Source of the DNA: Thiomicrorhabdus sp. Milos-T2
GTDB lineage: Bacteria > Pseudomonadota > Gammaproteobacteria > Thiomicrospirales > Thiomicrospiraceae
Assembly: GCF_000702325.1 (NCBI RefSeq)
Contig: NZ_KL370891.1
Coordinates: 1,755,306-1,819,305, forward strand
Direction: 5' to 3'
DNA: 64,000 bases
A program made the translations under genes and the position numbers. Of this stretch, positions 47,752 to 58,973 are shown piece by piece (positions within the stretch are counted from its first letter, which is position 1; every line of letters begins with the position of its first letter). The notes beneath the pieces were generated by a model. That model did no database searches and was not told where the DNA came from. It saw only the letters and a program-made list of their open reading frames with translations.

Positions 47752-47910
47752 GAGACCTTTGCACGAGATAGGTGCGAAAGAAAAATGAGAGAAAATTTGC
47801 TTGATTGCGGCGGAAAACGCAGGGAATAGCTAGCTATTCACAAGGTTTTCAACAAAAATCAGGTGAATTTTAACCATTTTTACTCGCGCATACTCTCTTG
47901 CAAAGGTCTC
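47752..47910. mobile_element. GAGACC-type MITE, copy C (159 bp)
   Basis: Perfect ends with ACATT duplicated on both sides (47747-47751 and 47911-47915). The centre holds the palindrome GGAATAGCTAGCTATTC. Its right end faces the start of the 75-aa gene, 56 bases away. Confidence 0.9.
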
Positions 47911-53749: not shown

Positions 53750-53908
53750 GAGACCTTTGCAAGAGATAGGTGCGAAAGAAAAATGAGGTAAAATTTGCCT
53801 GATTGCGGCGGAAAACGCAGGGAATAGCTAGCTATTCGCAAGTTTTTCAACAAAAATCAGGTGAATTTTAACCATTTTTACTCGTGCATATTCTCGTGCA
53901 AAGGTCTC
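53750..53908. mobile_element. GAGACC-type MITE, copy E (159 bp)
   Basis: AAATT is duplicated exactly on both sides (53745-53749 and 53909-53913). The right end faces the DUF3392 gene, 26 bases from its ATG. Confidence 0.9.
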
Positions 53909-54426: not shown

Positions 54427-54705
54427 TTAGCTACGGCTAGTCACTTCTAACAAGTGATAACCAAACTGGGTTTTTACAGGACCTTCAACAGAGCCTACAT
54501 CGGCACTAAAGACAACCTTATCAAATTCTGGAACCATCATCCCAGGACCAAACTGACCTAAATCACCACCATTTGCGCTTGATGGGCAGTTAGAGTTTGC
54601 TTTAGCGACATCTGCAAAATCTGCTCCATTAGCGATTTGTTCTTTTAATTGATTACACTGTTCTTCTGTATCTACCAGAATATGACGTGCCGTTGCTAAA
54701 GTCAT
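54427..54705 (-). CDS. ppiC: Parvulin-type peptidyl-prolyl isomerase
   Basis: A 92-aa single-domain parvulin that catalyses cis-trans isomerisation before proline. The family pattern ARHILVDTEEQCNQLKEQI, GADFADVAKANSNCPS, GGDLGQFGPGMMVPEFDKVVF and TQFGYHLLEV is complete. With no signal peptide it is cytoplasmic, like E. coli PpiC (93 aa). MITE copy F ends 39 bases before its ATG. Confidence 0.95.
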   Translation of the reverse strand: MTLATARHILVDTEEQCNQLKEQIANGADFADVAKANSNCPSSANGGDLGQFGPGMMVPEFDKVVFSADVGSVEGPVKTQFGYHLLEVTSRS

Positions 54706-54744
54706 AACATTTTCCTTCGTTTAATTTTATTTTTTAAGCTACTT

Positions 54745-54903
54745 GAGACCTTTGCACGAGATAGGTGCGAAAGAAAAATGAGAGAAAATTTGCCTGATTG
54801 CGGCGGAAAAAGCAGGGAATAGCTAGCTATTCGCAATTTTTTCAACAAAAATCGGGTAAATTTTAACCATTTTTACTCGTGCATACTCTCGTGCAAAGGT
54901 CTC
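54745..54903. mobile_element. GAGACC-type MITE, copy F (159 bp)
   Basis: Flanks TACTT and TATTT are an imperfect 5-bp duplication (4/5). Unlike the other gene-proximal copies, the left end (GAGATAGGTGCGAAAG side) faces the nearby gene, ppiC. Confidence 0.87.
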
Positions 54904-55042
54904 TATTTAGATATCTTTGCTTAAATTTAGTCTGCAAAGGCTTCTAATATAGCCACTTAAAATTCAATATAGGGTTTAAATTGAAAGTTTCAAGCTTTAA
55001 GAGATATTTTTCACCTTTTCCTGCCACCTTGTGGTCGACTAG

Positions 55043-55309
55043 GTAGTCGACTCTGGATCTCTAATTTAAATTATGTGGGACGTTTAAGCTTGTAGGCTCT
55101 AGGCGTGGACTGCAGATAATGGTTATTCCATTATCAAGTTACACAACAACGAGCATGCATGCTTAAACGCCCACCCGAAGGGGCGCCACCAGTTTTCACT
55201 CCACTACGTTAGAATTGCTCTTGTTATCTAGATACCATTTATCAATTCTGCCTTGTTGAGCAAAAACTGGTTTTGCCATAAATTAAATTAGTGATTCAGA
55301 GTCGACTAC
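55043..55309. other. Structured element with 33-bp inverted ends before hmgR
   Basis: The bases 55043-55075 and 55277-55309 are inverted repeats matching at 30 of 33 positions (GTAGTCGACTCTGGATC... against ...GATTCAGAGTCGACTAC). Inside are further stems: GTGGGACGTTTAAGC (55075-55089) with GCTTAAACGCCCAC (55161-55174); GATAATGG with CCATTATC near 55115-55135; CCAGTTTT near 55190 with AAAACTGG near 55263; AGAATTG near 55211 with CAATTCT near 55243. A hairpin GTCGACTAGGTAGTCGAC (55034-55051) overlaps the left end. It could be a structured RNA leader, a cruciform, or a mobile element. No second copy is in the window. Confidence 0.6.
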
Positions 55310-55324
55310 GTAGGGTTGCTCATC

Positions 55325-55330
55325 TATAAT
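55325..55330 (+). promoter_or_regulatory. -10 hexamer TATAAT directly before hmgR
   Basis: A consensus TATAAT ends seven bases before the hmgR ATG at 55337, and no Shine-Dalgarno precedes the ATG. Initiation at the usual distance would begin at the A of ATG, giving a leaderless mRNA. No strong -35 is seen 17 bases upstream. Confidence 0.5.
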
Positions 55331-55336
55331 ACGGCT

Positions 55337-56413
55337 ATGACTAAACAGACAGAAAACCTAACCCAATCGTTTGCTTCTATTCCAATGCAGGCAGTAGGCC
55401 CATTTAAATTAATTGGCGACGTTGAGGTCGATGACTTAATGGTGCCAATGGCAACTTATGAAACTCCGCTTTGGCCATCCGTTGCGCGCGGTGCTCGTGT
55501 CGCAGCGCATTCAGGCGGTATTCGGGTAACGGTAGTGGATGAGCGTATGACACGTTCTGTATTGTTACAGGCACAGAATGCGGGTATTGCGGCGTTAAGA
55601 CTTAAACAAATTCAGGCTGAACATGACCAACTCCAAGAAGTAGTCTCCAAAACCAGTCGTTTTGCTAAATTAATTGACACTCATTATCAAGTCGTTGGTA
55701 ACTTAATTTATTTACGCCTTGAATTTCATACGGGTGATGCATCTGGTCATAACATGGTGACTAATGCCGCTGACAAAATTTTACCTTGGTTACTAGAGCG
55801 CTATAGTGATTTAAGCTATGTCTCAATTTCTGCCAATTACTGCACAGATAAAAAGGTTTCTGCGGTTAACGGTATTTTGGGTAGAGGTAAGTATGTCGTT
55901 TGTGAAACCACAATTCCTAAAAAGTTCTGTAAACGCTTTTTAAAAACAACACCAGAAGCGTTAGTTGATTTACACATCAAAAAAGACCTCATTGGTAGTA
56001 TTGTCTCAGGCGGCCTACGTTCAGCTAATGCTCACGTTGCCAATATGTTGTTAGGCTTTTATTTAGCAACTGGCCAAGATGCCGCTAATATTGTTGAAGG
56101 CTCACAAGCCATTAACCATGCTGAAGTTACTCCAGAAGGTGATTTGTATTTTTCTAGCACCCTACCCAACTTAATTGTGGGAACCGTCGGTAACGGTAAA
56201 GGACTAGACTTTGTATTGGACAACCTAACTCTTCTTGGCTGCGCTAACAATAATGCTTCACCCGGTGAAAATGCTCGCCGATTAGCTTGTATTGCGGGTG
56301 CTACCGCATTTTGTGGAGAGCTATCTTTACTTGCTGCACAAACTAATCCAGGTGAATTAATGGAAGCACACATCAAACTAGAACGTTCGCATAATGCGTC
56401 CGAAAACGCATAA
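55337..56413 (+). CDS. Hydroxymethylglutaryl-CoA reductase
   Basis: Reduces HMG-CoA to mevalonate with NAD(P)H, the committed step of the mevalonate route. The 358-aa catalytic domain has no membrane anchor. Recognisable are VARGARVAAHSGGIRV, TGDASGHNMVTNAAD (counterpart of the class I GDAMGMNM region), VSAVNGILGRGKYVVCE with the catalytic Lys region, VGTVGNGKGL, and a C-terminal His (MEAHIKLERSHN). ATG at 55337 is taken because no ribosome site supports the upstream TTG. It is the first gene of the locus and follows the structured element. Confidence 0.9.
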   Translation: MTKQTENLTQSFASIPMQAVGPFKLIGDVEVDDLMVPMATYETPLWPSVARGARVAAHSGGIRVTVVDERMTRSVLLQAQNAGIAALRLKQIQAEHDQLQEVVSKTSRFAKLIDTHYQVVGNLIYLRLEFHTGDASGHNMVTNAADKILPWLLERYSDLSYVSISANYCTDKKVSAVNGILGRGKYVVCETTIPKKFCKRFLKTTPEALVDLHIKKDLIGSIVSGGLRSANAHVANMLLGFYLATGQDAANIVEGSQAINHAEVTPEGDLYFSSTLPNLIVGTVGNGKGLDFVLDNLTLLGCANNNASPGENARRLACIAGATAFCGELSLLAAQTNPGELMEAHIKLERSHNASENA

Positions 56414-58813: not shown

Positions 58814-58973
58814 GAGACCTTTGCACGAGTGGGGCGCGAAAGAAAAATGTGATAAAAATTGTCTGATTTAGGCGAAAAATTTAGCTAATAGCAAGCTATT
58901 GGCAAATTTTTCAACAACAATCAGGCGGTTTTTAACCATTTTTATTCGTGCATCCATCTCGTGCAAAGGTCTC
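58814..58973. mobile_element. GAGACC-type MITE, copy G (160 bp)
   Basis: Ends GAGACCTTTGCACGAG and CTCGTGCAAAGGTCTC are intact; flanks TTAAT and TGAAT are an imperfect duplication (4/5). It splits the mevalonate genes between mvaS and the first kinase, with its right end 34 bases before the kinase start. The interior is the most diverged of the full copies (GATTTAGGCGAAAAAT). Confidence 0.85.

Follow-up and report, generated by a model that had tools for sequence, protein, structure and literature searches.

A miniature mobile element before presumed mevalonate genes of Thiomicrorhabdus shares a covarying two-arm core with elements bounded by unlike terminal repeats

Why should a densely paired stretch of DNA stand directly before genes that we take to be the mevalonate genes, a name carried over from a first-pass annotation and one that fits the translations? 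The window, that is, the whole stretch of 64,000 nucleotides analysed here (contig NZ_KL370891.1, positions 1,755,306 to 1,819,305), comes from Thiomicrorhabdus sp. Milos-T2, whose genome (G000) comprises 2.66 Mb in 2 contigs. The first-pass annotation had described a 33-bp inverted repeat with at least four further stems inside it, a GTCGAC hairpin at its left border and pairing far above background, all of which is confirmed. Between 55043-55075 and 55277-55309, 30 of 33 positions pair, and the repeat can be extended to 55039-55075/55277-55313 (37 nt, 89%); the further stems include 55078-55099/55151-55172, 55188-55204/55255-55271, and 55115-55122/55128-55135, and the border hairpin is formed by GTCGACTA and TAGTCGAC at 55034-55051. 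The RNA minimum free energy (MFE) of 55030-55320 is -118.5 kcal/mol on the plus strand and -111.7 kcal/mol on the minus strand (z = -10.4 and -9.1, respectively), and none of 200 shuffles is as low on either strand. A scan of the 64 kb in 440 grid segments of 291 nt, which did not coincide exactly with the element, gave a lowest plus-strand MFE of -106 (mean -57.5, sd 10.8), and the three lowest segments overlap MITEs of another family. The features are collected in Table 1.

Table 1. Coordinates of the element, its surroundings and the single-arm MITEs, numbered from the first letter of the window.
Feature	Position	Strand	Remark
MITE copy, 261 bp, GTCGAC to GTCGAC	55046-55306	+	orientation is the strand scoring 200 bits with R1
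Left target-site copy TAGGTA	55040-55045	.	5/6 identical to the right copy
Right target-site copy TACGTA	55307-55312	.	letters of the uninterrupted site of relative G015
Left terminal inverted repeat	55046-55075	+	sequence pairing
Right terminal inverted repeat	55277-55306	-	sequence pairing
Conserved two-arm core	55071-55281	+	model R1 200 bits; other strand 55.1 bits
Arm A: basal stem, internal loop, hairpin	55075-55174	+	
Arm A internal loop	55101-55105 / 55144-55151		AGGCG / CAACAACG
Arm B, corresponding to arm A in inverted form	55182-55277	-	
Arm B loop letters	55207-55210, 55250-55253	-	AACG, AGGC
Further GTCGAC beyond the left target-site copy	55034-55039	.	pairs with 55046-55051 (border hairpin)
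TCGACT, candidate -35 (4/6) at right end of element	55302-55307	+	pattern match only
TATAAT	55325-55330	+	retained ahead of this gene in relatives lacking the element
Single-arm MITE copies, 159-160 bp	47752-47910, 53750-53908, 54745-54903, 58814-58973		GAGACCTTTGCACGA ends, mostly 5-bp flanking repeats

Judged from sequence, the element is a non-autonomous transposon (MITE), being short with terminal inverted repeats, a target-site duplication and dispersed copies. An unrecognised mobile element had been among the possibilities raised at first pass, and copies in other genomes, flanking duplications and uninterrupted sites bear it out; no observation made here favours the recombination site that had also been proposed. 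The BLAST search of its own genome returns a single copy, so that this sequence type is represented there by one complete two-arm element, and the search for more copies that had been suggested finds near-full-length ones in five related genomes: seven in G010, two in G023, two in G057 (75% and 66%), one in G059, and two in G095. Matches to the pattern of the ends number 71 in G010 and 46 in G023, whereas a reversed control pattern yields 2 and 1. Among 38 listed end pairings, 17 were counted as near-full-length copies, the 59-bp and the internally deleted ones were treated separately and the rest were taken as chance; exact 6-bp flanking repeats, nearly all TANNTA, occur at 11 of the 17. They also occur at three of four internally deleted copies (L173, L174, and L201, not L176) and at three of the four sites in G023 where 59-bp copies, which have lost the core through an identical internal junction, are found. 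As these core-less copies sit at different sites, the ends alone can move, and on this evidence the core is dispensable in cis for transposition.

A candidate for the enzyme comes from genome G024, where an insertion of 5388 bp (L240 188-5575) has matching GTCGAC-type ends, is bordered by TAATTA at either side and contains two IS5-family transposase gene pieces (NF033578, 388.9 and 91.7 bits) flanking an IS66-family element, which itself contains an IS3-family element. No other transposase was seen enclosed by ends of the GTCGAC type, and relatives of this one were found only in G024 and G042 among 62 family genomes, with none in the genome of the window. A DDE transposase that recognises GTCGACTCTGAATAA-type ends would have mobilised the element in trans, and an IS5-family enzyme of the G024 type may have moved the window copy. 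Despite the matching ends, the window element differs from IS5-family insertion sequences in encoding no transposase, and the core is not part of the G024 element, in which R1 has no match. A phage or plasmid origin was rejected, as neither the window element nor its relative Kmv17 matches phages or plasmids. The single contig of genome G182 carries about 21 near-identical 264-bp copies with ACTAAGACAAACGATAACAAA ends, and none of the 21 full or near end pairs among the matches listed there is longer than a MITE; in the same genome, a two-arm copy has as its immediate neighbour another element, which resembles a single arm and has ends of the CGGCAACTATCCATGTC type (L255, about 1190-1380).

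What, then, does the element do for the genes beside it? The best named matches of the downstream protein lie on Thiomicrospira and Thiomicrorhabdus contigs (the first few 92-85% identical), and the closest protein (95%) is carried by G015, which reads TTTTCCTGCCCGTACGTAGGGTTGCTCATTTATAAT before the gene; the window has the same words, but the element splits them at TACGTA. None of the seven relatives compared at this place (G015, G009, G010, G007, G026, G002, and G013) has the element, a comparison that leaves out L056 and L058-L060, for which the stretch examined was not the one upstream of the gene, and L083 and L086, which repeat L057 and L062. The insertion would have hit a TACGTA target ahead of the first gene of the mevalonate cluster. 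To the left of the target copy the window is about 12 bp longer than G015, including the additional GTCGAC, and a similar GTCGAC adjoins copy L164 in G010. The TATAAT box separates the element from the gene and stands 6 bp ahead of the likely ATG, and since relatives lacking the element keep it a few bases before the ATG, the transcript of the gene probably starts past the element. The first-pass proposal of a structured regulatory RNA or leader sensing an isoprenoid-related signal does not survive this comparison. A mevalonate leader RNA or riboswitch would suit the position directly upstream and the very stable fold, but the element is missing from every relative compared, its copies elsewhere lie beside unrelated genes and the conserved TATAAT stands between it and the gene, so that conservation before the same gene fails at the locus and we regard this reading as highly improbable. 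Probably the insertion did no more than exchange the sequence that precedes the -10 box. The right end of the element may supply a -35-like hexamer, TCGACT, 17 bp before TATAAT (together 10 of 12 consensus letters, as a pattern match only), and an insertion-made -35 for the downstream gene is possible. At the mevalonate locus itself we are dealing with an ordinary insertion beside a promoter.

The 27-codon minus-strand frame that had been pointed out inside the repeat exists, but it is not kept as a frame across copies: among 13 other copies, one of which was left out because the search string is absent, it has 38 codons in eight (two of them starting at TTG), 27 in one, and 8 to 17 in three. 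With its length varying in this way the frame looks incidental to the stems, and a coding function was rejected.

Weak BLAST matches confined to the interior of the element led to elements of the same architecture with different ends. RNAalifold on 20 relatives gives 93 pairs, 79 of them with two-sided change, and compensatory changes, the absence of which was to speak against a structured element according to the first-pass annotation, are strongly present in the core (57 of 68 pairs). Core cells are paired in 93.8% of cases, against 70.1% after shuffling and 35-44% after sliding, and none of 500 shuffles reaches any of the observed measures; alignment and structure derive from the same sequences and kinship inflates these scores, while the sliding control is clear. 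The structure of the core is selected, as a property of the mobile element and not of the locus.

The ends around this core are very diverse. When 98 non-redundant elements are clustered by single linkage on the 27 nt that adjoin the core externally, they form 25 groups at 60% identity and 40 at 65%. GTCGAC ends go with 6-bp flanking repeats, GGAA- or GGGCACC-type ends, as we read them, with exact 4-bp repeats in 6 of 11 cases, ACTAAGAC-type ends, again as we read them, with a flanking TA at either end in 6 of 10, and the single-arm GAGACCTTTGCACGA family with 5-bp repeats in 21 of 39 pairings, some of them nested. As the flanking repeats vary with the type of end, we infer several transposases behind the different end types. 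The 210-nt core belongs to a superfamily whose members are enclosed by terminal repeats of many kinds, and its recurrence between very different ends points to a selected role, so far unrecognised.

A covariance model of the core, R1, was built from the 20 relatives, and matches to it were obtained in 37 of 60 genomes of the family, at least 108 of 369 of the class (E <= 0.001, six candidates scored per genome) and at least 62 of 299 of a phylum sample, 38 of the latter outside the class and 34 of those in one family; all these counts are lower bounds. Three other relatives match plasmids of Vibrio, Photobacterium, Pseudoalteromonas, Catenovulum, Azotobacter, Pseudomonas, and Halomonas, the named carriers including Azotobacter chroococcum and Pseudomonas aeruginosa. 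On the P. aeruginosa plasmid NZ_CP017294.1 (L417 1501-1767), a relative fills the gap between a CoA-transferase and an acyl-CoA dehydrogenase gene, both annotated and co-directional, with 31 and at most 7 bp left over.

A closer examination of the arms identified them as inverted copies of one motif (AGGCG...CAAC/AACG), arranged as stem, internal loop and stem. Among 117 elements, AGGCR is found in the 5' loop of arm A in 100 and inverted in arm B in 105, with 8 and 6 in the wrong orientation; CAAC and AACG are present in 90 and 85 elements in arm A and in 72 and 96 in arm B, the wrong orientation accounting for 9-21. Arm A aligns better to the inverted than to the direct arm B in 104 of the 117, but the inverted alignment gains from stem complementarity too, which makes the loop letters the better evidence. 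The GAGACCTTTGCACGA MITEs, of which the genome of the window holds many copies, contain the motif once, with AGGCG/GGCGG...CAACAA loops. The first-pass statement that the pairing is not explained by the MITE families elsewhere in the window was therefore half right, since a single arm with this loop motif is present in the GAGACCTTTGCACGA MITEs of the window.

A G-U pair on one strand is A-C on the other, and their ratio consequently shows the strand on which pairing matters. With alignments fitted to the model, a first set of 52 elements (<90% identity) gives 126 GU and 14 AC in the 5' arm and 20 and 55 in the 3' arm, and a new set of 68 elements gives 161 and 27 against 30 and 103 or, counted by element, 59 versus 2 in the 5' arm and 6 versus 47 in the 3' arm. 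Pooled over 99 elements, the 5' arm has 242 GU and 37 AC and the 3' arm 39 and 135 (5'-first ratios of 6.6, bootstrap 4.5-10.1, and 3.5, bootstrap 2.5-5.0), the arm sums omitting four pairs of the B loop, one of which is a near-invariant U-G (94/99); once these pairs are included, arm B comes to 138 GU and 142 AC. Arm B was also even in the first 20 elements (10 GU, 10 AC), and counted per pair position in the new set its bias is not significant (9 versus 15 positions, p = 0.31). The bias of arm A is robust; that of arm B hinges on omitting one invariant loop pair. The terminal repeats have 14 GU and 12 AC, and 32 single-arm sequences from the genome of the window have 73 GU and no AC on the motif strand, much of which is shared by descent. 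Because the sign of the bias differs between the arms, a mutation skew that simply affects a whole strand is excluded, and a choice of strand for each element cannot cause such a difference, so that each arm seems to be constrained as a single strand when it comes 5'.

These observations also bear on whether the core could be passive, its pairing being kept by quasi-palindrome correction (template switching between the stem strands) and not by functional selection. Template switching does restore stems and can produce two-sided changes, and the element is a selfish MITE whose window copy has no link to its neighbour genes. However, loop letters that do not pair are conserved as well, the two arms are biased in opposite senses while the terminal repeats show little bias, and the core is maintained whatever the ends that enclose it; none of this would follow from correction alone, and we consider a passive core improbable.

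Which molecule is constrained is a separate matter. RNA is most likely and single-stranded DNA possible, as tolerance of GU could equally mark the latter. REP/BIME pairs, which are dispersed over intergenic regions, consist of two imperfect and strand-specific hairpins in inverted orientation, and the inverted strand-specific pair is common to them and to our element. The arms might accordingly act as single-stranded DNA, like BIMEs read by REP-associated Y1 transposases, a hairpin-binding enzyme reading the 5' arm of each strand during replication and the DDE repeats being added later. Two such hairpins with a 5'-first GU bias fit single-stranded DNA as well as RNA, and the roughly 21 uniform copies in G182 occur without a longer element sharing their ends. 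On the other hand, duplications of 6 bp, TA (6/10), and 4 bp (6/11) are of the kind left by DDE transposases and not by Y1 enzymes, core-less 59-bp copies have moved, no GTAG tag as in REP/BIME was noticed by eye, and the element has a base-stem, terminal repeats and target duplications; overall this explanation appears unlikely, if a serious competitor. We judge it probable that the window holds one MITE copy moved in trans, with a superfamily core of two inverted arms that are strand-constrained, most likely as RNA.

The genomic surroundings of the core were classified with a longest-ORF rule, not a gene finder, which assigns 7 of 94 classed sites to the interior of an ORF, 49 to gaps between co-directional genes (25 of these with less than 100 bp left besides the element), 24 to gaps between divergent genes and 14 to gaps between convergent ones; 281 control gaps comprise 180 co-directional, 45 divergent, and 56 convergent ones. 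The element is thus tolerated in operon-like places. A terminator for convergent genes was rejected, there being no intrinsic terminator and no enrichment between convergent genes (14/87 versus 56/281 control gaps). Where the neighbouring genes are co-directional, single-arm MITEs point either way without preference (12 sense and 16 antisense, some pairings nested), which argues against a regulatory role for host genes. The arms may rather serve the element itself, as RNA formed when transcription enters it: transcription from either side would make the proper motif first, and the arm RNA could keep the element tolerated or expressed, for example by shielding against read-through effects. Taken as a whole, the picture of a Pseudomonadota-wide mobile superfamily, in which a selected, inverted and strand-specific pair of RNA hairpins (also found single) has been passed among the repeats of several transposase families, the working motif being made first, is one that we offer tentatively and at somewhat less than even confidence.

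In the excerpts of the literature consulted, bacterial MITEs such as QMITE1/2 of Coxiella (PMC5896051; review PMC10969869) are shorter than 500 bp, have terminal inverted repeats and flanking direct repeats, lack a transposase, yield strongly folding transcripts and are mostly intergenic. Our element matches them in size, repeats, missing transposase, folding and intergenic sites; those MITEs are described per species or genus in these excerpts, whereas here one covarying core lies behind many unlike repeats across Pseudomonadota. The CIR elements of Caulobacter, as far as the corresponding part of a review describes them (PMC2229807), fold as RNA into two inverted-repeat arms with a linker and are conserved between genera. 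The two-arm inverted-repeat fold and cross-genus conservation are alike, but by that description CIRs have a GANTC motif, while the arms here have AGGCG/CAAC loops inside terminal repeats with target duplications. Rfam 15 gave seven matches to 54600-55600 of the window up to E = 10, all far below gathering, and none to the loci of five relatives up to E = 1. No description of the core was recognised in the literature listings and excerpts covered, the latter from PMC5896051, PMC10969869, PMC4853749, and PMC2229807, and literature searches by short sequence strings returned unrelated matches among the 25 of 99 listed. As far as checked (Rfam 15, literature), the mobile DNA part is a MITE, a known kind, and the structured core shared across families is undescribed.

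MITEs are usually seen as end sequences flanking dispensable filler. A filler that covaries, conserves its loops and is mirrored on the two strands behind unlike ends would mean that MITEs carry a working nucleic-acid module, and model R1 could annotate many copies that are currently blank. Lone arm-B-like hairpins also occur in the genome of the window (L354 and L355, G000 C1:1933590-1933890 and 1974440-1974740); they cover model positions 119-198, and no terminal repeats were recognised around them.
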